A stretch of 64,000 bases of DNA, taken from positions 3,099,225 through 3,163,224 of the forward strand of contig CP054185.1 of the NCBI GenBank assembly GCA_015180985.1. The letters run 5' to 3'. The translations under genes were made by a program, and so were the position numbers. Under the pieces are notes generated by a model. The model was not told the DNA's origin and did no database searches. It saw only the letters and a list, made by a program, of their open reading frames with translations. This DNA comes from Flammeovirgaceae bacterium. GTDB taxonomy: Bacteria > Bacteroidota > Bacteroidia > Cytophagales > Cyclobacteriaceae. Position 1 is the stretch's first letter, and every line of letters starts with the position of its first letter. Of the stretch, positions 46,742 to 56,187 are shown piece by piece.

Positions 46742-47068
46742 TTAGCGCGGCCAATCAGCAATTCCTCCGGCCAGGTTATAGACCTTGTATCCTTCTTTCG
46801 AAAGAATGGCGCACGCCTGGCCGCTGCGGCTGCCGCTGCGGCAAAACAAGAAATACTCCTTTTCCTTATTGAGTTTTAAAAATTGGCTTTTAAATGATGA
46901 CGACAAAAAGTCTATGTTTTTGGCACCTTTAATTGTACCGGCATTAAACTCACCGGCAGTCCGGACATCTATCAGCTCAGCTCCGGCTGTAGCCTGATAT
47001 CGTTCCTTAAACTCCTTACCCGATAAGTCTTCGTACGTTTTTGAACCTATTGAAAACAGATTGAACAT
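46742..47068 (-). CDS. Single-domain rhodanese (sulfurtransferase)
   Basis: A 108-residue cytoplasmic rhodanese. The catalytic loop CRSGSRSGQ (Cys ~75) is intact, preceded by a standard LIDVRTAGEFNAGTIKGA segment. It moves sulfane sulfur between thiosulfate, persulfides and acceptors. It lies 28 nt downstream of the persulfide dioxygenase-rhodanese gene and is the last gene of that operon before the terminator. Confidence 0.93.
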   Translation of the reverse strand: MFNLFSIGSKTYEDLSGKEFKERYQATAGAELIDVRTAGEFNAGTIKGAKNIDFLSSSFKSQFLKLNKEKEYFLFCRSGSRSGQACAILSKEGYKVYNLAGGIADWPR

Positions 47069-47096: not shown

Positions 47097-48500
47097 TTAT
47101 CCGGTTACAACCGGATTTCCTTCATTTATCCATTCACTAATTCCGCCCGCATAATTTTTTACGTTCGTGTAGCCGTGCTTTGCCAGAAGGGAATACCCGA
47201 TGGAGGAGCGATCACCGGACTGACAATGGATAACTACCTGCTGATCCCTTTTTATTTTACTTAGATTTTTCTCAAGTGTGCCAATGAATACATTGTCGGT
47301 TCCTTTAATGTGACCCGATTTGTATTCGCTGGCTCCGCGCAGGTCAACTACCTGGGTGTGGTTGGTCTTTACTATCTCTTTGAATTCATCTAATGAAATA
47401 ACCTTTGCTTTTTCAAGTACATTTCCATTGCCGGCCCAGGTTGAAACATCGGGGATGTATCCATAGATGTTATCCATGCCTATCCGCATTAACTTACGAA
47501 CGAGGTCATCGTGCTTGCTCTCATCAGCAACCAGGATAAACGGCTCTTCGTACGATAAAAACCAGCCCATCCAGGTAGCGAAGGCGTTATTTCCCTGAAT
47601 GTTTATCGAACCCGGAATAAACCCTGCTGCAAATTCCTGCTTCAGGCGGGTATCTATTACTTTAATACCTTTTGCCATTGCCGCCAGAAGTTCATCTTTC
47701 GATAGTTTCTTAAGTTTTGGAACTTCTGTAAGGAGCGGGCGATTCACCTTGTTCAATTTCTTCATCATGGCGAAGTACTTAGGCGGCTCAGGCTGGTCTT
47801 CCAGTAAATACTTAACAAATCCCTGCTCATCATTTTTGTACTGAAGAGCCCAGTTACGCACTTTCTCATAACCTACTGTTGTGCTGGGTACCGCGCCCAA
47901 CGCTTTACCACAGGCAGAGCCTGCGCCATGGCCGGGCCACACCTGAATGTAATCTGCCAACTCGCGGAAACGTTCAACCGATTTATACATTTGTTTAGCG
48001 CCAACATCTTTGGTTCCTACCAAACCGGCAGCCTCTTCAAGCAAATCAGGCCGGCCAATATCGCCTACAAACACAAAGTCACCGGTAAATAACATCACAG
48101 GCTTGTCGCTGGCCGGTGTATCGGTCAGTAAAAAACTGATGCTTTCAGGAGTATGACCCGGTGTGTGCAGCACTTCTATTTTCAGGTTGCCTACCATTAT
48201 CACATCACCATCCTTTAATCCTTCGTGGGGAAACTCATACTGCCAGCCGTCACCGCCTTCGTCCGACAGGTACATTTTCGCTCCGGTAAGGGCAGCCAAT
48301 TCTCGCGAACCTGACAGAAAATCAGCATGAATGTGCGTTTCGGCTATGTGCGTAATTTTCATATTGTTCTGCCTGGCAATTTCCAGGTACGTATCCACAT
48401 CCCGCTTGGGATCGATAACCATGGCTACACCGGCCTTCTGACAACCGATAAAGTAGCTTGCCTGTGCAAGTGATTTGTCGTAAACGTGTTGGAAATACAT
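47097..48500 (-). CDS. Persulfide dioxygenase-like MBL-fold protein fused to two rhodanese domains
   Basis: A 467-residue fusion. The metallo-beta-lactamase part (~1-250) has ETHIHADFLSG (~54-64), HTPGHTPES (~111-119), TGDFVFVGDIGRPDL (~137-151) and WPGHGAGS, matching ETHE1/PDO enzymes that oxidise glutathione persulfide to sulfite with Fe(II). The first rhodanese-like domain (~270-360) has no active-site Cys (LVADESKHDD); the second (~375-465) has an intact loop CQSGDRSS. First gene of a two-gene operon with a Crp/Fnr-like site upstream. Confidence 0.92.
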   Translation of the reverse strand: MYFQHVYDKSLAQASYFIGCQKAGVAMVIDPKRDVDTYLEIARQNNMKITHIAETHIHADFLSGSRELAALTGAKMYLSDEGGDGWQYEFPHEGLKDGDVIMVGNLKIEVLHTPGHTPESISFLLTDTPASDKPVMLFTGDFVFVGDIGRPDLLEEAAGLVGTKDVGAKQMYKSVERFRELADYIQVWPGHGAGSACGKALGAVPSTTVGYEKVRNWALQYKNDEQGFVKYLLEDQPEPPKYFAMMKKLNKVNRPLLTEVPKLKKLSKDELLAAMAKGIKVIDTRLKQEFAAGFIPGSINIQGNNAFATWMGWFLSYEEPFILVADESKHDDLVRKLMRIGMDNIYGYIPDVSTWAGNGNVLEKAKVISLDEFKEIVKTNHTQVVDLRGASEYKSGHIKGTDNVFIGTLEKNLSKIKRDQQVVIHCQSGDRSSIGYSLLAKHGYTNVKNYAGGISEWINEGNPVVTG

Positions 48501-48526: not shown

Positions 48527-48570
48527 CAAAGTTAGATAAGCTGCAGAAAAAGTTACGTGATTCCAGTCAC
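48527..48570 (-). promoter_or_regulatory. Class II Crp/Fnr-type promoter of the persulfide dioxygenase operon
   Basis: On the minus strand GTGA-CTGGAA-TCAC (48570-48557), 22 nt, then TAACTTTG (48534-48527). With the -7 box at -12 to -5 the start is 48522 and the palindrome is centred at -41.5. No good TTG at -33, consistent with activator dependence. The same layout precedes two other units of this island. Confidence 0.72.
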
Positions 48571-48767
48571 CAAGAACCACGGATTTATACCCGCAACATC
48601 CGCTATTTTGGTTTTTGTTCACTAAAAATCTGTAAGCGTACCAAAATAACGGGTATCTATCTAAGGCAATTGTTTAAATACTTTTAACATGAGAACGGCA
48701 AACAACAACGGTATGCTTAAGGACTTATTTCACCTTTATTAATCCGTTTCTTGAAAATAAAATTAAT

Positions 48768-50579
48768 TTACCTGAACTCATACCCAAAGCCCATGAGTTG
48801 AGTAAGCAATGTATTAGGTGCATCGGTAGCTGTTGCCCGGCCTTCTAATTTCGGTTCGATGGGCGAGTGCTTGGCCAGGTATTCCTGGATAACACTGTGA
48901 AGTGTAACACCTAATCGCTTTGGTTCCGCTACATTGTCTACACGGCATATTGTGGTATCAGGGTCGCCCTCGCGTTCGCAGGCAACAAAACTATACACAC
49001 GGTCCAACTCCAAGGGTTTGCCTTTTACTTTTATCCAGTTTACACGCTTACCGGCATCGTTGGCAATGGTAAAGTTTACTTCCATGCCTTTGAAGCGTAC
49101 CACCCACCCGCCAAAACGTTTGGCCGGATCTTTGGCAAACGCATTTTGAAGTTCTTTTTCCATCCAGTCCCACAGTTGTTTGCCGGTAATGTTTCCTCGC
49201 TTGGCTTCGCTGTCAACCGGCAGCATGCTCCACAGGTAGTCCATGGTAATATCGGCAACACCTGTTTTAGAATCAGGTACTAATGGCGGGCAAAACCGGA
49301 AGCCATTGCTGAGCGCTATATCGGGTTTAAATTTCCACATAATGGCATCGGTAATAAAATTATCCATCGGTGTTTCAATTACGTAGTAACGAACCAACGG
49401 AGTCTTGGTCTTACCGATTACCCTATCCAACTCTTTTTTGTAGGGCTCACGCGCTTTCTCTACAAGCAACTTCATTTCTTCATCTTCTTTGTATCGATCC
49501 GGATCGACATCGAGTAACTGATACGACTGGTCTTTAATCTGCCCGTCTTCCACCACAAAATCAAGCTTGGCTACAAACGACCCGAAAGCACCCGGCTCGG
49601 TTACTTTTGCGTGCACTGCATGAATAGGTTCGCGAACCCGTTCATGAGTATCGGCACCCAGAATGTAATCAACCCCTTTCACAAAGGGCATGTTAGCCAA
49701 ACCAATTTGCTGGGCAAGGCCCATGTGTGTGAGGAGTATTACAATGTGGCAACCTTCGTACTCGCGAAGCAGCTTGATGTATTTCGCCACATTTTTCTCA
49801 GGGTTTGTAAACTGGATGCCTTCGCTGTAGGCAGGCGATTGCCTCTTGGGCGTGAGTGGGTCGTTGTAGCCGATAAAGCCAATTTTAATCTCGCCAAATC
49901 GTTTTACGTAGTAAGGTGGAAAGATCAGGTCGCCATTCAGGCTGTCGTTGGTTTGATGAAACATGTTGGCACATACTTTCGGGCAATTGTACCCGAACAT
50001 ATCTTTCATCATCATCTCCTTGCCATACACTACTTCCCAGTTGCCCGGCAGCATCAGGTCGTACCCGATGTTGTTCATGAGTGGGATAATCGCTCTGCCT
50101 TCGCTCAATGCTGCTACGCCTCCGCCCTGAAAGCAATCGCCCCCGTCAATCAACAAGGTATTTTTTGGATTCTCTGCCCGCAGTGAATTAACCATCGACT
50201 TTAACGTGGCAAAGCCTCCACGCTTTTTATAAACCACCTTATCATGCTCAATAAAAAATTCATCGTGGGTTAAAAGCTGCGCATGTATATCAGCTGTATG
50301 AAGCAGCGTTATACGTTGGGCTTTGCCCTGCATAACCGCTTTGTTAGAAGCCATCTCTTTACTTCTACGGCTGGCGTCACTTTCATAAAGTGCTGATGCA
50401 GAAACAGGTGTAACCAAACCGCCACCCACGCCAAGGGCCAATCCTAAACTACCTGCTTTGCGCAAAAATTCTCTGCGGCTGTTTTCTGAAAGTTCAATAT
50501 TGTACTTTATTTCATTGTCAGTAACAAGGTTTTGCTGGCAATTATGGCACAAGCAGGCAGATGTGTTGGTGTGCTCCAT
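48768..50579 (-). CDS. SoxB-like thiosulfohydrolase/5'-nucleotidase-family protein with Tat signal
   Basis: A 603-residue dimetal phosphoesterase-fold protein. Motifs: LLHTADIHAQL (~91-101), LLIDGGDCFQGG (~140-151), LPGNWEVVYG (~180-189), ILLTHMG (~275) and LGADTHERV (~304-312). The Trp in GNWE, where nucleotidases have GNHE, resembles SoxB (GHWEFTYG), which cleaves sulfate off thiosulfate bound to SoxY. A Tat motif SRREFLRK (~34-41) precedes a hydrophobic segment. The ~33 residues before it hold an unusual CLCHNC cluster. No earlier or alternative start removes that part. Last gene of the yeeE-soxB operon. SoxYZ is absent, so the substrate carrier is uncertain. Confidence 0.8.
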   Translation of the reverse strand: MEHTNTSACLCHNCQQNLVTDNEIKYNIELSENSRREFLRKAGSLGLALGVGGGLVTPVSASALYESDASRRSKEMASNKAVMQGKAQRITLLHTADIHAQLLTHDEFFIEHDKVVYKKRGGFATLKSMVNSLRAENPKNTLLIDGGDCFQGGGVAALSEGRAIIPLMNNIGYDLMLPGNWEVVYGKEMMMKDMFGYNCPKVCANMFHQTNDSLNGDLIFPPYYVKRFGEIKIGFIGYNDPLTPKRQSPAYSEGIQFTNPEKNVAKYIKLLREYEGCHIVILLTHMGLAQQIGLANMPFVKGVDYILGADTHERVREPIHAVHAKVTEPGAFGSFVAKLDFVVEDGQIKDQSYQLLDVDPDRYKEDEEMKLLVEKAREPYKKELDRVIGKTKTPLVRYYVIETPMDNFITDAIMWKFKPDIALSNGFRFCPPLVPDSKTGVADITMDYLWSMLPVDSEAKRGNITGKQLWDWMEKELQNAFAKDPAKRFGGWVVRFKGMEVNFTIANDAGKRVNWIKVKGKPLELDRVYSFVACEREGDPDTTICRVDNVAEPKRLGVTLHSVIQEYLAKHSPIEPKLEGRATATDAPNTLLTQLMGFGYEFR

Positions 50580-50656
50580 AGTATTTACTTTGAGATAATT
50601 TGTTTATTACCGAATGATTTCGCCAGCTGCCAACTTGTAGTTGCCAGAAAAACCCA

Positions 50657-51064
50657 TTAAAAGCCTGTTTTAATGTAAAGCCAGCCGGCCTGTTGCAACT
50701 TTACAATTTCAACCAACCCATACGGTACCGTAGTGGCATACGGCACCAATTGTTCGGGTTTTATTTGTCGTTGCTTCATGGTAAACTCACAGCCTATAAA
50801 AGCTACTTCTCTAAGCCGTGCATGGTGAATTCTTTCCGCATATTCTGATTGACTTTTTAACAGAAAACCCATTCCCGGACCATGGCATACTATTTTTACT
50901 GCAGCCTGTGGAATTTCTTTTTTAAGGTTTACAATCTGATTAACAAGTGCTTTGTAAACCAGGGTGTCACCGGTTTGCAGGTGTAACAACACCTGTGGAT
51001 TTGCTTGACCTGAAGCAGCACCTGATAAACCGGTTAACACAAGTAACAATGCCAGGTATTTCAT
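50657..51064 (-). CDS. Exported DsrE-like sulfur-carrier protein
   Basis: A 135-residue protein with a signal peptide (MKYLALLLVLTGLSGAASG, before QANP). The fold and motif FIGCEFTMKQRQI (~90-102) match DsrE-like proteins, in which this Cys carries sulfur; a second Cys lies at VCHGPG (~59-64). Most DsrE proteins are cytoplasmic; this one is exported, so it may hand sulfur to the SoxB-like or cytochrome partners. Between the porin-like gene (17 nt) and the SoxB-like gene (77 nt). Confidence 0.85.
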   Translation of the reverse strand: MKYLALLLVLTGLSGAASGQANPQVLLHLQTGDTLVYKALVNQIVNLKKEIPQAAVKIVCHGPGMGFLLKSQSEYAERIHHARLREVAFIGCEFTMKQRQIKPEQLVPYATTVPYGLVEIVKLQQAGWLYIKTGF

Positions 51065-51081
51065 AATGTTATTTTTTAACT

Positions 51082-52512
51082 TTAAAAATAATAATCCAGC
51101 ACAACAGAAAGCAGGTGGGCATCAACTTTGTTATGATAAGTAGCCGGGCTTACTTCTACATTTCGATCCAGATTACCTTTGTACGAATACATGATATCAC
51201 CCTGTAAGCCGTGCATAAACCCCTTAAATTTGTACCGCGCCCTCACATTGATGTGATAAAAACCTGGCATTGTGTATTTGTTCAAAACTGCGTTTGATAC
51301 CGAGGGCATCCAATACACGCCACCCTGCGTTTGCAGCGAAAGGTTTTTTCCTTTACCAAGTGGGCGTTGATTCTGCAGCATAATAGCATGCACATCGCCA
51401 GCACCCTCTACCCGTTCACGAAACATAAAGGTATAAAAGGGTTCAACTCCCCACTCGCGCGGGAAGAGAAAGCGGCCATGAGCCGTAATGCGTGTGTAGT
51501 TCAAATCCCAACTATCGCCACGTGTTACTTGGGTAGTGCCTACCCGGGCACTTAACGCATGCGCTTTTTCATCGGCTGGTGTGTATTGCTTTTCAAGTGC
51601 CACTGTATCGGAATACAGCGAGTGCTGCGTAAGGTATTGCATACCCACAAACCACTGCTTGTTGTTTTTCCTTGTTTTGTATTCAGCCTTTAACAGAGAG
51701 GTATTGAATACGTTTGTTACCCGGTAGTTCCAGGCTTGAACTTCCAGTCCTTTTACAGGCAGAAGTGTAACATTGGCGATGGCAATACCATCGGATTTTA
51801 CATTACCGGCATAGGCAGACTTTAATCCGTTGGTAGCTCTTCCGCCCGGATATACGCCCAACGATTCGCCAATGTCAAACCACCGTATTGTACTACGCGG
51901 TGATGTTCTCCACAACCAGCCTCCGCTTAGTTTTATCTTTTTAAACTCATTCCATTCACCCCATATTCCTTGCTGAAGATTAGGCCGCATGCGGCCATCT
52001 TGCAGGTTGATGAGCGGGGTTTTTAAATGAAATTTCCCTACCTGAAAATACGAGTGATTCTCTTGCGAGATGTAATACCTCAGGTAAAGGTCTTCCAGCC
52101 GATCCAAATCATCGTGGTTATCCGGATTGTTGATATCAAATAAGCCCAGTTCATATCGGTTAGTATATGGTGGTTGTGGCCCCAGGTGAGAAGATGCCAT
52201 ATTGTAGATAATAAACCCCGACATGCCCACCTGAAAGTTTTTTATAACCGGAGAGAAGTAAGCCAGTCCCCCACCCATCGCCAAGGCATAATAATCAGGA
52301 TAGTCCTCATGGTTAACTGTACCCATAAAGAAAGTACGCAGGTGGCCTTCGAATGTACCCATTTTATGAAGCACATTGCATAAACTGTCAGCCTGTATGC
52401 ATTGCTGATTAATAATAGCACGCCTAACTGACCAACTTGGATCCTGGTGTTGGGCTTTTATACTGCCCACTATGGCTGTAACTGAAAACCAATAAATTAA
52501 AATCCTCTTCAT
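51082..52512 (-). CDS. Outer-membrane porin-like barrel of the sulfur island
   Basis: A 476-residue protein with a signal peptide (MKRILIYWFSVTAIVGSIKA, before QHQD). It has the long barrel pattern of OprD-type porins: FFMGTVNHED, YLRYYISQENHSYFQVGKF, then many alternating strands, ending in a strand SVVLDYYF with terminal Phe. It overlaps the end of the TsdA-like gene by 4 nt (ATGA), so both are translated together. The likely role is uptake of thiosulfate or a related anion; the cargo is inferred only from the neighbours. Confidence 0.75.
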   Translation of the reverse strand: MKRILIYWFSVTAIVGSIKAQHQDPSWSVRRAIINQQCIQADSLCNVLHKMGTFEGHLRTFFMGTVNHEDYPDYYALAMGGGLAYFSPVIKNFQVGMSGFIIYNMASSHLGPQPPYTNRYELGLFDINNPDNHDDLDRLEDLYLRYYISQENHSYFQVGKFHLKTPLINLQDGRMRPNLQQGIWGEWNEFKKIKLSGGWLWRTSPRSTIRWFDIGESLGVYPGGRATNGLKSAYAGNVKSDGIAIANVTLLPVKGLEVQAWNYRVTNVFNTSLLKAEYKTRKNNKQWFVGMQYLTQHSLYSDTVALEKQYTPADEKAHALSARVGTTQVTRGDSWDLNYTRITAHGRFLFPREWGVEPFYTFMFRERVEGAGDVHAIMLQNQRPLGKGKNLSLQTQGGVYWMPSVSNAVLNKYTMPGFYHINVRARYKFKGFMHGLQGDIMYSYKGNLDRNVEVSPATYHNKVDAHLLSVVLDYYF

Positions 52513-53558
52513 TTTGCCTTTCCCTTACTCTGTTCTTTTCTTTTCTCCATTATCGGTTTAAAGGGGCCGAATTTGTGTTGCTGTTCATTAAATCCATCCG
52601 CGAAAGGCCCGAATGGGTGGTCAACGGGTTTCGTTGATATATCGGGCCAGTCGTGAGTGATATCTTTTTTAGGCCGGGGCATGGAGTTTACATATGCCGC
52701 AATATGCCACGCCTCTTCATCGGTTAGTTGTGGTTCTTCATAAGTTGCCCCCAGCGGCATATTTGCTTTTATGTAACCGGCAAATCGCGATAGCCGGTAC
52801 AAACCGGCCCCATTGTTGTAACTATGCTCGCCCCACAGCGGAGGATACGTCCACGACTTGGCCTCCGTGTTCCTTATACCCCCACCATTTTTTCCATGAC
52901 ACACTGTACACTTTTCATCGTAAAGAATTTTTCCTTTAACAGGATCGGCCGGGGTTTCCAAAAATGATAACTCAACCAAGCCTGAGCCCTTCGGACTTTC
53001 TCCTTTTGGTACATCTTTACCCAGCCATTTGATGTAGGCAACAATTGCCTGCATTTCGCGTGAATCATCAGCCAGTGGTTGACCATTCAAACTACGTTCG
53101 AAGCAATCATTTACGCGCTTCTCAATGGTTTCTTCAGTGCCCGAACGCGCCCGGAATTTCGGATAGGTGGAAGCCACCGCACTGTAGTTATTGCCAAAAG
53201 GCCTGGTGCCGGCATCTAAATGGCAATTCTGGCAATTCATGCCATTGCTTACAGCCATTACTGAACCGTTGGGACCGAGATATTCGGCCGTACGGCTTAT
53301 CAGTTCTCGACCATACTTTATTTTTTCACCTGCTTCACCCGCTGGTATGGTATTCTCTGCCGGTGGCATCCACACACCCGCAACCGGTTCAACCACGGTT
53401 TCAGTCATTTTGGAGGGCGCCAGAAATGCCATCAATTTGGTGGGACCAATCACTATTACACCGATTATACCGGTTATTGCAGCCACCAGTAATACCACCA
53501 ATGCAACAAGGGCTTGTACTATTTTTAAAAAGCGATGATGGATAAGCTCTTCTTCCAT
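52509..53558 (-). CDS. tsdA: TsdA-like dihaem c thiosulfate dehydrogenase
   Basis: A 349-residue membrane-anchored cytochrome: helix ~14-38, then two c-type haem domains. Haem 1 site C109-Q-N-C112-H113, haem 2 site C217-T-V-C220-H221. C152 in NDCFERSLNG falls where TsdA enzymes have the unusual Cys axial ligand of haem 1, and the context LDAGTRPFGNNYSAVASTYP also matches. TsdA joins two thiosulfates to tetrathionate or the reverse. A Lys-rich tail ends the protein. Located between the YeeE/YedE pair and the porin-like gene. Confidence 0.87.
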   Translation of the reverse strand: MEEELIHHRFLKIVQALVALVVLLVAAITGIIGVIVIGPTKLMAFLAPSKMTETVVEPVAGVWMPPAENTIPAGEAGEKIKYGRELISRTAEYLGPNGSVMAVSNGMNCQNCHLDAGTRPFGNNYSAVASTYPKFRARSGTEETIEKRVNDCFERSLNGQPLADDSREMQAIVAYIKWLGKDVPKGESPKGSGLVELSFLETPADPVKGKILYDEKCTVCHGKNGGGIRNTEAKSWTYPPLWGEHSYNNGAGLYRLSRFAGYIKANMPLGATYEEPQLTDEEAWHIAAYVNSMPRPKKDITHDWPDISTKPVDHPFGPFADGFNEQQHKFGPFKPIMEKRKEQSKGKAK

Positions 53559-53602
53559 ACATAGAAAAAGGTTAGTGCTGCGCGTGCCGCAGAAACCTAC
53601 TT

Positions 53603-54115
53603 TTAATGAGGCAGTCTTTCACGGAGCAAACCGTACACCCACGTACCGGCAATGGCACTGATAAGTGTTACCACAACAACCAGAAAGCCGCTGCCGATTT
53701 GCGCAAACAAAGGGCCGGGACACGCCCCGGTAATAGCCCAGCCTAACCCGAACATACCCGCACCAATTACATTACCCCAGTGAAACTGCTTGTCATGAAA
53801 CACAACGGTTTCCTTTTGCATGGTTTTTATCTTAAATTTTTTTATTGCCCACACTGAAATCATGCCCACCACAACAGCCGTACCGATAACACCGTACATG
53901 TGGAATGAGTGCAAGCGGAACATCTCCTGAATGCGGTACCATGAGATAATCTCAGCTTTGACGAACACGATGCCAAACAACACACCCACCACTGCATATT
54001 TGATGTTGGAACCTATGAGCGATTCCTTTGCCACCTGATCATTGGGAGCTTCACACTCTACCGGATGTTCTACCACTAGGGGTGTTGATTTTAAATCTTG
54101 ATTTGATGCTTGCAT
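53603..54115 (-). CDS. YeeE/YedE-family half-transporter (C-terminal half)
   Basis: A 170-residue membrane protein with four helices. The motif GLGWAITGACPGPLFAQIG (~115-133) carries one conserved Cys of the YeeE/YedE family; the TsuA-type members import thiosulfate using such cysteines. It corresponds to one half of the long single-chain transporters and starts 15 nt after its partner half. The pair likely imports thiosulfate or a related sulfur species. The N-terminal ~35 residues are a polar cytoplasmic segment. Confidence 0.87.
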   Translation of the reverse strand: MQASNQDLKSTPLVVEHPVECEAPNDQVAKESLIGSNIKYAVVGVLFGIVFVKAEIISWYRIQEMFRLHSFHMYGVIGTAVVVGMISVWAIKKFKIKTMQKETVVFHDKQFHWGNVIGAGMFGLGWAITGACPGPLFAQIGSGFLVVVVTLISAIAGTWVYGLLRERLPH

Positions 54116-54130
54116 AACAATTCTGATTTT

Positions 54131-54697
54131 TTAAAGTACGCGTAACAACCAGGGGAAAACCAAATGAACCATAGCAAAACCTCCTGCCATAAAACAGCAG
54201 GTTGCCACTAACGAAGGCCATTGTAAGGTTGACAGGCCCATGATGGCATGGCCGGAAGTGCAACCTCCGGCATAACGTGTACCGAAGCCAACCAAAAAGC
54301 CACCCACAACAAAAAATACCAACCCCTTTAAACTAAAAAGTGATTCAAAGCTGAAGAGTGAAGCAGGCATCAATTCATTATCGGTAGCGATGTTGAGCGC
54401 TTGCAATTCTTGTATAGTTTGTTCAGCCACCACAATCGGTTCAGGATTACTTAGAAACTGCATGGCTACAAAGCCCCCCAGCAATACTCCTCCAACAAAA
54501 AAGAGGTTCCAGACTTCCTTTTTCCAATCGTATTGGAAGAATGGAATTTTGGCAGGTACACAAGCCGCACAGATATGCCGGAGTGATGACGAAATGCCAA
54601 AATGCTTGTTGCCCAGGAGCAGCAAAGCCGGCACTGTTAAACCAATTAGGGCCCCGGCAACATACCAGGGCCATGGCTTTTGTATGATTTCAATCAT
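54131..54697 (-). CDS. YeeE/YedE-family half-transporter (N-terminal half)
   Basis: A 188-residue membrane protein with about five helices. [16 protein letters not shown] (~150-165) is the second family signature, with its Cys. Two more Cys in ICAACVPAK (~39-47) lie in a loop after the second helix. Together with the following gene it makes a full YeeE/YedE-like transporter. It is the first gene of the six-gene operon running to the SoxB-like gene and is preceded by a Crp/Fnr-type promoter. Confidence 0.88.
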
Positions 54698-54729
54698 AGG
54701 ATAGCAAGTTGTTTTTTAGTATAGGTTTA

Positions 54730-54773
54730 CAAAACTAATATCATGATTTTCGTCAGTTCGTAACATTTGTCAC
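54730..54773 (-). promoter_or_regulatory. Class II Crp/Fnr-type promoter of the yeeE-soxB operon
   Basis: On the minus strand GTGA-CAAATG-TTAC (54773-54760), 22 nt, then TAGTTTTG (54737-54730). Predicted start 54725; the palindrome is centred at -41.5, as in the other two island promoters. One base differs from a perfect palindrome. Confidence 0.7.
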
Positions 54774-54902
54774 ATAGCTTATTCATGTAAATAAGTATAC
54801 AGGATCACGCACTTTACAGGGGATAAAATCAGAAATGAGGAACTCCACTTAAAGAGTTACTCCGTAATCCGGAAGGCCAACGCCAGCACGCAAAGCCTTC
54901 CT

Positions 54903-55697
54903 TCAGGCAAGCAATTCCTTGGCAAGAATGTATACGCCCATTACCAGAACAAACCAGCCAAAACCGGGTTTCAGTTTCTCGTTAGGGATAAAGCGCTGGA
55001 GGTAACTGCCCAGCAGAATGCCCGCAATAGCAAATCCGGAGAATAACAACATAAAGCCGTAATCAATCGGCTGACCGGACTCCAAATCGCCCGTAAAACC
55101 AATAAGTGATTTTAGTGCGATAATTAACAATGAGGTTCCTACAGCTTGCTTCATAGGCAGACCGGCAAGCAACACAAGGGCTGGAATAATTAAAAAGCCT
55201 CCACCTGCGCCTACCAGGCCGGTTACACCACCCACCAATATTCCTTCAGCAAAAATTAATGGGAAATTATACTTTTGCTCACCTTCCTTCCTTTTAAGCC
55301 CTGCGGATTTTCGAATCATTGAAACGGATGCCAGAAGCATGAGCACAGCAAATAACACCATTAAAAAAAGTGGCTTAGTCATGGTAAATGAACCCATCGT
55401 AAAAAGCGTATCGGGTATAACGGGTACTATAAACTTCCGGGTAGCATATACCGCCACAATAGAAGGCACACCAAAAACCAAGGCTGTTTTTAAATCAACA
55501 TTTCCGCTTTTAAAATGACTGAACGAACCAACCAGGCTGGTAAGACCAACCACAAAAAGTGAATACGCAGTGGCTAAAACCGGATCAACCCCAAATAAAT
55601 ATACCAGGATAGGTACGGTAAGAATGGAACCCCCTCCGCCAATCAATCCTAACGATAATCCCATAACAATAGAAGCTGCAAATCCAATTATTTCCAT
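54903..55697 (-). CDS. TauE/SafE-family (TSUP) anion exporter
   Basis: A 264-residue protein with eight or so helices. GLIGGGGSILTVPILVYLFG (~18-37) and the related GLVGAGGGFLIIPALVLLAG (~160-179) are the two inverted-repeat signatures of TauE/SafE transporters. In a sulfur-oxidation context the probable role is export of sulfite or sulfate made by the persulfide dioxygenase. It has its own Crp/Fnr-type promoter and is not fused to the yeeE operon; 205 nt separate them. Confidence 0.9.
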   Translation of the reverse strand: MEIIGFAASIVMGLSLGLIGGGGSILTVPILVYLFGVDPVLATAYSLFVVGLTSLVGSFSHFKSGNVDLKTALVFGVPSIVAVYATRKFIVPVIPDTLFTMGSFTMTKPLFLMVLFAVLMLLASVSMIRKSAGLKRKEGEQKYNFPLIFAEGILVGGVTGLVGAGGGFLIIPALVLLAGLPMKQAVGTSLLIIALKSLIGFTGDLESGQPIDYGFMLLFSGFAIAGILLGSYLQRFIPNEKLKPGFGWFVLVMGVYILAKELLA

Positions 55698-55765
55698 AAT
55701 GACTTAGTAAATAGTGTAGAGGAGGTTTAATCCAGGTTGTAAAACGAAGCGGCTAAAAATTCAAG

Positions 55766-55783
55766 TTGCAATTTTTATTGCAA
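55766..55783 (-). promoter_or_regulatory. Double TTGCAA palindrome at the tauE start point
   Basis: TTGCAA-N6-TTGCAA; each half is itself palindromic. It overlaps the last bases of the -7 box and the predicted start (55776). Possible repressor operator added to the activator site. Confidence 0.4.
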
Positions 55784-55824
55784 AACTATCCTTCGAAAAC
55801 GCTGCCATCCGTAACCTGTGTCAC
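55781..55824 (-). promoter_or_regulatory. Class II Crp/Fnr-type promoter of tauE
   Basis: On the minus strand GTGA-CACAGG-TTAC (55824-55811), 22 nt, then TAGTTTTG (55788-55781). Predicted start 55776; palindrome centre -41.5. Identical geometry to the sites at 48527-48570 and 54730-54773. Confidence 0.7.
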
Positions 55825-55952: not shown

Positions 55953-56024
55953 TAGCCCGTAGGGGAATCGAACCCCTGTTACCAGAATGAAAATCTGATG
56001 TCCTAACCCCTAGACGAACGGGCC
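55953..56024 (-). tRNA. tRNA-Glu (UUC)
   Basis: Acceptor GGCCCGT/ACGGGCT (G-T at the first pair), anticodon loop TTTTCAT with anticodon TTC, T stem-loop CAGGGGTTCGATTCCCCT. Discriminator A; CCA is not encoded. Confidence 0.95.
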
Positions 56025-56187
56025 CCTGAAAAAGAGTTGCAAAGATAGACTGGCACATATTATTTACAAATACTGCCCGCAAAAAATGGGTAAAAACCCC
56101 ATACCATCCGGTTTTAAACCCAAATGCCTTAACCACGACAATTTATCATAAACCAAAACCACTTTTTTGTGCTAAATCCAAAAAACA

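Follow-up and report, generated by a model that had tools for sequence, protein, structure and literature searches.

Three predicted promoters of a sulfur gene island in a Flammeovirgaceae bacterium share a layout pointing to a putative Crp/Fnr-subfamily regulon

Three layouts of equal geometry in a sulfur gene island

The window analyzed here, a stretch of 64,000 nucleotides from a Flammeovirgaceae bacterium (G000:C1:3099225-3163224 of a 3.38 Mb single-contig genome), harbors an island of sulfur-related genes in which three predicted promoters share one layout of 44 nt, composed of a 14-bp palindrome, a spacer of 22 nt, and a box resembling the -7 element of Bacteroidota. An earlier note on this DNA had placed the layouts on the minus strand at 48527-48570, 54730-54773, and 55781-55824, and all three match exactly. 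The palindrome before the persulfide dioxygenase gene, GTGACTGGAATCAC (48557..48570), carries GTGA in both halves and is followed by the -7 element TAACTTTG (48527..48534), which ends 26 nt before the dioxygenase ATG. The palindromes before the yeeE operon (GTGACAAATGTTAC, 54760..54773) and before tauE (GTGACACAGGTTAC, 55811..55824) have GTGA in one half, and both are followed by the -7 element TAGTTTTG (54730..54737 and 55781..55788), located 32 nt from the yeeE ATG and 83 nt from the first tauE ATG, respectively.

No further match with up to two mismatches was found in the window, and 100 dinucleotide shuffles returned a mean of 0.22 and a maximum of 2. When the spacing was left free (7-37) and the box written as TANNTTTG, the same three places were still the only matches, against 0.05 expected. 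The palindrome by itself is not very rare (7 observed vs. 2.8 expected) and the box TANNTTTG by itself is not enriched in the window (54 observed vs. 63 expected); the distinctive feature is their combination at a fixed spacing, neither element singly.

The genes served by these layouts lie on the same strand. The first encodes a persulfide dioxygenase-like protein (47097..48500) with a metallo-beta-lactamase fold and rhodanese domains (Pfam Lactamase_B and two Rhodanese stretches), for which no NCBIfam model scored above its cut-off, the enzyme name being an interpretation without a curated match. It probably forms one operon with the downstream rhodanese gene (46742..47068, Pfam Rhodanese), given the gap of only 28 nt. 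The yeeE operon begins with the two parts of a YeeE-like sulfur transporter (part 1 at 54131..54697, Pfam Sulf_transp; part 2 at 53603..54115, Pfam Sulf_transp and DUF6691) and continues with a SoxA/TsdA-like cytochrome c (52509..53558, Pfam SoxA-TsdA_cyt-c), an OprD-like porin (51082..52512, Pfam OprD), a DsrE-like sulfur carrier (50657..51064, Pfam DsrE), and, presumably as its last gene, a SoxB-like thiosulfohydrolase (48768..50579, Pfam Metallophos and 5_nucleotid_C), a name used loosely since the NCBIfam SoxB model gave 275 bits against a cut-off of 550. We infer a single operon from the first YeeE part (YeeE1) through the SoxB-like gene because the intergenic gaps are below 80 nt. The third target is a member of the TauE/SafE sulfite exporter family (54903..55697, Pfam TauE). 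Just upstream of the tauE site, a tRNA-Glu-like gene was recognized by eye at 55960-56025 on the minus strand.

Promoter geometry

Excerpts of PMC6847099 describe the Bacteroidota -7 element TAnnTTTG as spanning -12 to -5 (T-12, A-11, T-8 to G-5), with transcription in Flavobacterium johnsoniae starting 4-5 nt downstream of it, and the -33 element as much less evident. The earlier note's placement of the box at -12 to -5, with palindromes centered at -41.5, is thereby backed, the starts themselves being predicted. A 14-bp palindrome located 22 nt ahead of T-12 spans -48 to -35, and its center is therefore -41.5. This is the class II activator position, as in the class II promoters of Escherichia coli CRP. 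With the box placed according to the excerpted PMC6847099 and the starts deduced from it, the palindrome centers would thus fit a class II arrangement by sequence.

The spacers had been described as unrelated in sequence, and this holds over 129 distinct sites collected with at most one mismatch, in which spacer positions carry 0.03-0.16 bits of information with the single exception of the third base (A in 63%, 0.63 bits). No enrichment of a -33 element was detected at the spacer start, where TTG occurs in 12 of the 129 sites and about 14 were expected. Within the regulon the -7 box is relaxed at its first position, where 66% of the sites have T.

The layout in the rest of the genome and in relatives

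In the whole genome, the free-spacing pattern returned nine matches, five of them at exactly 22 and the remaining four at 23, 29, 12, and 11, compared with two matches of a reversed control pattern; the binomial chance of this excess at 22 is 4e-6, assuming 31 equally likely spacings. The five exact spacing-22 layouts precede the persulfide dioxygenase gene, the yeeE operon, tauE, a thioredoxin gene (at locus L003, 11 nt ahead of it), and a YgaP-like membrane protein gene, the last layout (locus L002) being located between a Crp/Fnr gene and an open reading frame (ORF) of 27 aa that is followed by the YgaP-like gene. The genome-wide scan proposed in the earlier note, for which many copies before unrelated genes counted as a refutation, thus returned, at exactly 22 nt, only copies preceding a sulfur or thiol gene (5/5). 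At up to two mismatches the genome contains 35 matches, fewer than the 51 of the reversed control, so that these matches were considered mostly noise and dropped as evidence. Plausible members at L016 (thioredoxin, one mismatch), L020 (DUF6132, one mismatch), and L022 (rhodanese lipoprotein, two mismatches) were left uncounted. A spacing-23 copy at L001 (G000:C1:18141-18185), GTGATGCCCGTCAC then TATATTTG, stands 23 nt ahead of a universal-stress-protein-like gene and, after it, a metal-ATPase-like gene, both named by eye; perhaps it belongs to another Crp/Fnr regulator with identical geometry.

For the dioxygenase loci of relatives we used the best 80 of 285 confirmed relatives (titled records, 1.51 Mb), the best dioxygenase matches being metagenome-assembled genomes of Cytophagales and Cyclobacteriaceae. 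A refined motif, GTRAY-N4-RTYAC plus TANNTTTG, with the palindrome refined after the own-genome sites were seen, occurs exactly in these 80 loci 62 times at spacing 22, 15 times at spacing 23, and 11 times in total across the 29 remaining spacings tested (77/88 at 22-23). Site loss in relatives keeping the dioxygenase had been named beforehand as a refutation; the sites are mostly kept, with at least one layout (up to one mismatch, spacing 22/23) in 71 of the 80 loci. We assigned the nearest genes downstream of 181 sites in these loci by tblastn, using proteins of the window and of our own genome as queries: dioxygenase homologs (61), TauE (36), YeeE1 (13), thioredoxin (11), and OprD (9), with 34 unassigned. 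In the loci L064, L067, L068, and L069, from Saprospirales and Chitinophagales, every listed site has spacing 23, not 22.

A gene-independent scan of 60 family genomes, including our own, with the plain pattern returned at least 150 matches, none of those listed coming from our own genome. Among the 150 matches listed, 34 have spacing 22, compared with a mean of 3.9 at each other spacing, and 12 of these 34 sites are located less than 600 nt from a dioxygenase or subfamily Crp gene (see below), versus 1 of the 116 matches at other spacings. The stretches surrounding the 34 sites were compared with those of 20 controls taken from the 116 non-22 matches: all 34 spacing-22 sites were recovered, 30 of these were intergenic according to a simple ORF caller and 26 had an ATG within 80 nt, as against 6 and 4 of the 20 controls. 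Rhodaneses, thioredoxins, TauE, YgaP-like membrane proteins, SulP permeases, and dioxygenases are encoded after these spacing-22 sites, one or two of each class being confirmed by Pfam, NCBIfam, or dioxygenase search and the others assigned by resemblance. SulP permease family genes follow the layout at L195, L197, L199, L294, L308, L334, L336, and L339, suggesting a sulfur-oxyanion transporter as a possible regulon member. In two family genomes, a spacing-22 layout precedes a CcmE-type cytochrome c maturation gene (L183:1462-1505, by eye; L191:1471-1514, Pfam).

The earlier note had predicted one regulator switching on the whole island. A shared class II Crp/Fnr layout is still the best reading, but the regulon extends past the island, to the thioredoxin and the YgaP-like membrane protein in this genome and to rhodaneses and SulP permeases in relatives.

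A Crp/Fnr subfamily linked to the sites

Five proteins of the genome score above the Pfam cut-off for HTH_Crp_2, none of them encoded in the window. The earlier note was therefore right that the window holds no Crp/Fnr gene; regulator candidates are nevertheless encoded elsewhere in the genome, as two paralogs of one Crp/Fnr subfamily, at L002 (L002:858-1487, 209 aa) and L014 (L014:~1021-1638). The L002 protein belongs to the Crp/Fnr superfamily by Pfam cNMP_binding (32.7 bits, cut-off 27.5) and HTH_Crp_2 (41 bits, cut-off 27), and its gene ends 13 nt before the layout described above. The L014 gene is directly upstream of a second dioxygenase-rhodanese gene (L014:1638-1880), which is preceded by a weak site (GTGACAAATGTCAT, spacing 23, box CAATTTTG, two mismatches); a tRNA-Leu-like gene, recognized by eye, lies directly upstream of the Crp gene at L014:914-995. 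Either L002 or L014, or both, may be the binder in this genome.

The search for a conserved Crp/Fnr gene, also suggested earlier, was productive, with the subfamily present in 56 of 60 family genomes (E 1e-20) and 97 of 296 phylum genomes (E 1e-55). A member is found inside 14 of the 80 dioxygenase loci. Conversely, we took 80 regulator loci, hand-picked from the places listed as subfamily matches (60 of those listed for the phylum and 20 for the family), which they do not exhaust. A gene of the sulfur set lies within 6 kb in 62 of them, an exact site is present in 42, and both occur in 38. Narrowing the stretch to the central 3 kb gives 54 of 80 regulator loci versus 0 of 23 control regions, a background that is rough because these regions (the 20 pattern controls plus the loci of three other Crp/Fnr genes) are not random.

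Covariation of recognition helix and site

The third residue of the aligned recognition helix is Glu in 62 and Val in 39 of 101 subfamily members, at the position of the Glu in the SRETVGR of CRP. In CRP this residue, Glu181, reads the base pair at position 3 of the half-site. The site finder used here disregarded palindrome positions 3 and 12. All 39 Glu-type loci had a GTGA half, compared with 2 of the 18 Val-type loci (Fisher 2.6e-12), a value that is not final because the loci are related. L201 and L342, both Glu-type, are one place in G033 counted twice, and the distinct count is 38/38. Counted per site, 64 of the 66 sites at Glu-type loci have the GTGA half, compared with 3 of the 31 at Val-type loci. 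The tree-based test comprised 56 rows with both traits, L285 and L308, which have both helix types, being excluded from the counts. The fewest Glu/Val changes on the tree are five, four of them forced by well-supported branches, and six on a tree built without the helix columns; among independent Glu/Val pairs, the predicted direction appears in nearly every pairing and the opposite direction never.

A same-genus comparison was also available. In G244 a single subfamily member passes the E 1e-55 level, and it is of the Val type; L048, taken as the G244 island, has left halves reading GTTAC before tauE, GTCAC before yeeE, and GTAAC before a thioredoxin-dioxygenase pair, whereas the window counterparts before tauE, yeeE, and the dioxygenase all read GTGAC. 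The third L048 site retains a GTGA right half, and the contrast thus points in the predicted way in part.

An invariant cysteine beside the former cAMP pocket

A single Cys is invariant in all 101 subfamily members (100 distinct), at a position that is a gap in the three other Crp/Fnr-type proteins of the genome. In an AlphaFold model of the L002 protein (mean predicted local distance difference test score, pLDDT, of 93; 50-row alignment), whose structural matches are CRP-type, this Cys is residue 78, located just before helix 79-87. By alignment it sits at the CRP segment that we take to be involved in cAMP binding. None of the NCBIfam models reached its cut-off for the four subfamily members scanned.

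Sensors of known type were considered and, by sequence, set aside. The cAMP pocket of E. coli CRP has the signature GEL...RSA; in the candidate an ESCVMSF-type sequence bearing an insert takes the place of this segment, and the NCBIfam CRP score is 35.7 against a cut-off of 266. The [4Fe-4S] cluster of FNR needs four cysteines, while the L002 protein has one and only one Cys column is invariant among 50. An HcpR identity is not supported by sequence closeness, with 37 bits for PDB 9day versus 121 bits for 3dv8. A sensor of the SqrR/CstR type, in which a cysteine pair resides in an ArsR or CsoR protein, does not agree with Crp/Fnr domains bearing one invariant Cys.

Proposed regulon and rival explanations

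Taken together, we consider it highly probable that the three layouts mark class II promoters belonging to one regulon under a Crp/Fnr-subfamily protein encoded outside the window. Such a class II regulon appears very likely because sites, spacing, gene linkage, and base-residue covariation combine. In the proposed mechanism, a dimer of the subfamily protein would bind GTRAY-N4-RTYAC centered at -41.5, substituting for the weak -33 element, and would recruit the Bacteroidota primary RNA polymerase to TAnnTTTG. We infer that the protein acts as an activator, which would jointly switch on the persulfide dioxygenase, the rhodanese, the YeeE/TsdA-like/SoxB-like operon, TauE, the thioredoxin, and the YgaP-like membrane protein. 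The signal would be sulfane sulfur (persulfide or polysulfide) on the single invariant Cys beside the former cAMP pocket; we hold this at roughly even odds, favored by the target genes and the lone conserved Cys.

Several observations weigh against this reading. Nine of the 80 dioxygenase loci have no layout (L045, L049, L050, L076, L077, L088, L089, L092, and L103; L049 and L092 are contigs below 10 kb). Among the 80 regulator loci, 38 lack an exact site and 18 a sulfur-set gene, and the same-genus regulator loci L303 and L304 (G244 and G108) lack both. Only two supported independent pairs (three in all) have both traits, and the sign test gave no significant result. The genes behind some spacing-22 sites encode CcmE, an outer-membrane efflux protein, an M28 peptidase, or unknown proteins; other Crp/Fnr proteins may therefore share the geometry. 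G at -10, present in two of the window boxes, is virtually absent from the F. johnsoniae set as excerpted from PMC6847099. Finally, the subfamily has a single invariant Cys, while in SqrR and CstR cysteines become linked to one another, according to excerpts of PMC11211675.

The explanation that competes most seriously keeps the regulator and its class II promoters and changes the signal, to oxygen, general redox state, nitric oxide (NO), or a small ligand. Signals of this kind are common among Crp/Fnr proteins, spacing-22 sites also precede CcmE and an outer-membrane efflux gene, and a usp-like gene (by eye) of our own genome stands behind a spacing-23 site. Even so, the gene classes that most frequently follow the sites act on persulfide, thiosulfate, sulfite, or thiols, and the L002 protein, with one Cys in all, has too few for an FNR-type four-Cys cluster; we regard a different signal as possible, though less probable than sulfane sulfur. 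That another Crp/Fnr protein of the genome, outside the L002/L014 subfamily, binds the sites seems improbable. Three more such proteins (L010, L011, and L013) exceed the Pfam cut-off; their aligned helices, however, read ASESVIR, SRQTVTT, and RVETVIR, all three lack the Cys, and it is the L002/L014 subfamily that is physically linked to the sites and whose helix residue covaries with the site base.

Slightly less probable still is that the palindromes are repressor operators, as with the ArsR-type SqrR/BigR/SoxR. In other phyla, several of the known regulators that control such genes in response to sulfur act by repression, as far as the excerpted sources go; the fixed distance to the -7 box and the predicted center at -41.5 form the pattern of a class II activator, and the linked regulator is Crp/Fnr. 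Chance resemblance, to which the commonness of each element singly and the lack of an excess of two-mismatch matches over the control might point, is refuted by the sequence statistics (shuffle and genome counts, the spacing, gene-proximity and intergenic counts in relatives, and the covariation), and we deem it negligible.

Returning to the Crp/Fnr-subfamily regulon, the data suggest an undescribed sulfur-sensing circuit. There may be an even chance that across Bacteroidota this subfamily, with an invariant Cys replacing the cAMP pocket, is a widespread sulfane-sulfur-sensing activator in which Glu/Val at the residue matching CRP Glu181 and base three of the half-site (GTGA/GTAA) co-switched more than once, rewiring whole regulons with the promoter geometry unchanged. 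Since a concrete candidate protein, site, regulon, and residue are named, persulfide sensing in Bacteroidota becomes directly testable. The case would also illustrate how an activator and its site co-evolve while the promoter geometry stays fixed, which is helpful in predicting Crp/Fnr targets phylum-wide.

Comparison with known systems

Among known sulfur-responsive regulators, SqrR, BigR, and SoxR are of the ArsR type and CstR is of the CsoR type, and E. coli YgaV sits with the YgaP membrane/rhodanese gene. Papers on FNR and FnrP in which cysteine persulfide or persulfidation is mentioned reportedly concern persulfide-ligated iron-sulfur clusters. The literature basis consists of excerpts of PMC6847099, PMC9774590, PMC11211675, PMC13370916, PMC11582611, and PMC12345210. 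According to these, SqrR/BigR/SoxR, CstR, and FisR resemble the proposed regulator in controlling sulfide-, persulfide-, or thiosulfate-oxidation genes; SqrR, BigR, SoxR, and CstR are called repressors and FisR an activator, none of them Crp/Fnr. YgaV is likewise a sulfide-responsive regulator, yet a SqrR/BigR homologue and not Crp/Fnr. The sulfane-sulfur regulators named in the excerpts are FisR, SqrR, CstR, CsoR, OxyR, LasR, OhrR, other MarR-family members, and BigR, with no Crp/Fnr protein among them, and the word start "bacteroid" is absent from the main text of one review of sulfane-sulfur regulators. Titles and abstract openings among the matches listed, from a search mostly outside the subscription literature, likewise gave no Crp/Fnr regulator of Bacteroidota sulfane-sulfur genes, a negative that carries little evidential weight.

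HcpR of Porphyromonas gingivalis (PDB 9day) shares the Crp/Fnr fold and the phylum, but is a far weaker match (E 1.6e-8), and its heme, nitrosative-stress response, and hcp target, as given in the excerpted sources, differ from the sulfur regulon proposed here. The closest solved sequence is PDB 3dv8 (EUBREC_1222 of Eubacterium rectale, E 3e-34), in which both the Cys and a REV helix are aligned; it was deposited as a putative transcriptional regulator. Given 3dv8, from a species that we take to belong to another phylum, the subfamily may reach beyond Bacteroidota. With E. coli CRP, the candidate shares the fold, the domain order, the aligned recognition helix R-E-x-x-x-R, GTGA half-sites, and the -41.5 center, predicted here; it differs in that a GESCVMSF-type sequence, containing a two-residue insert and the Cys, stands in place of the GDF-IGELG segment of CRP, and in that the subfamily would use the Bacteroidota -7 box and serve a sulfur regulon.

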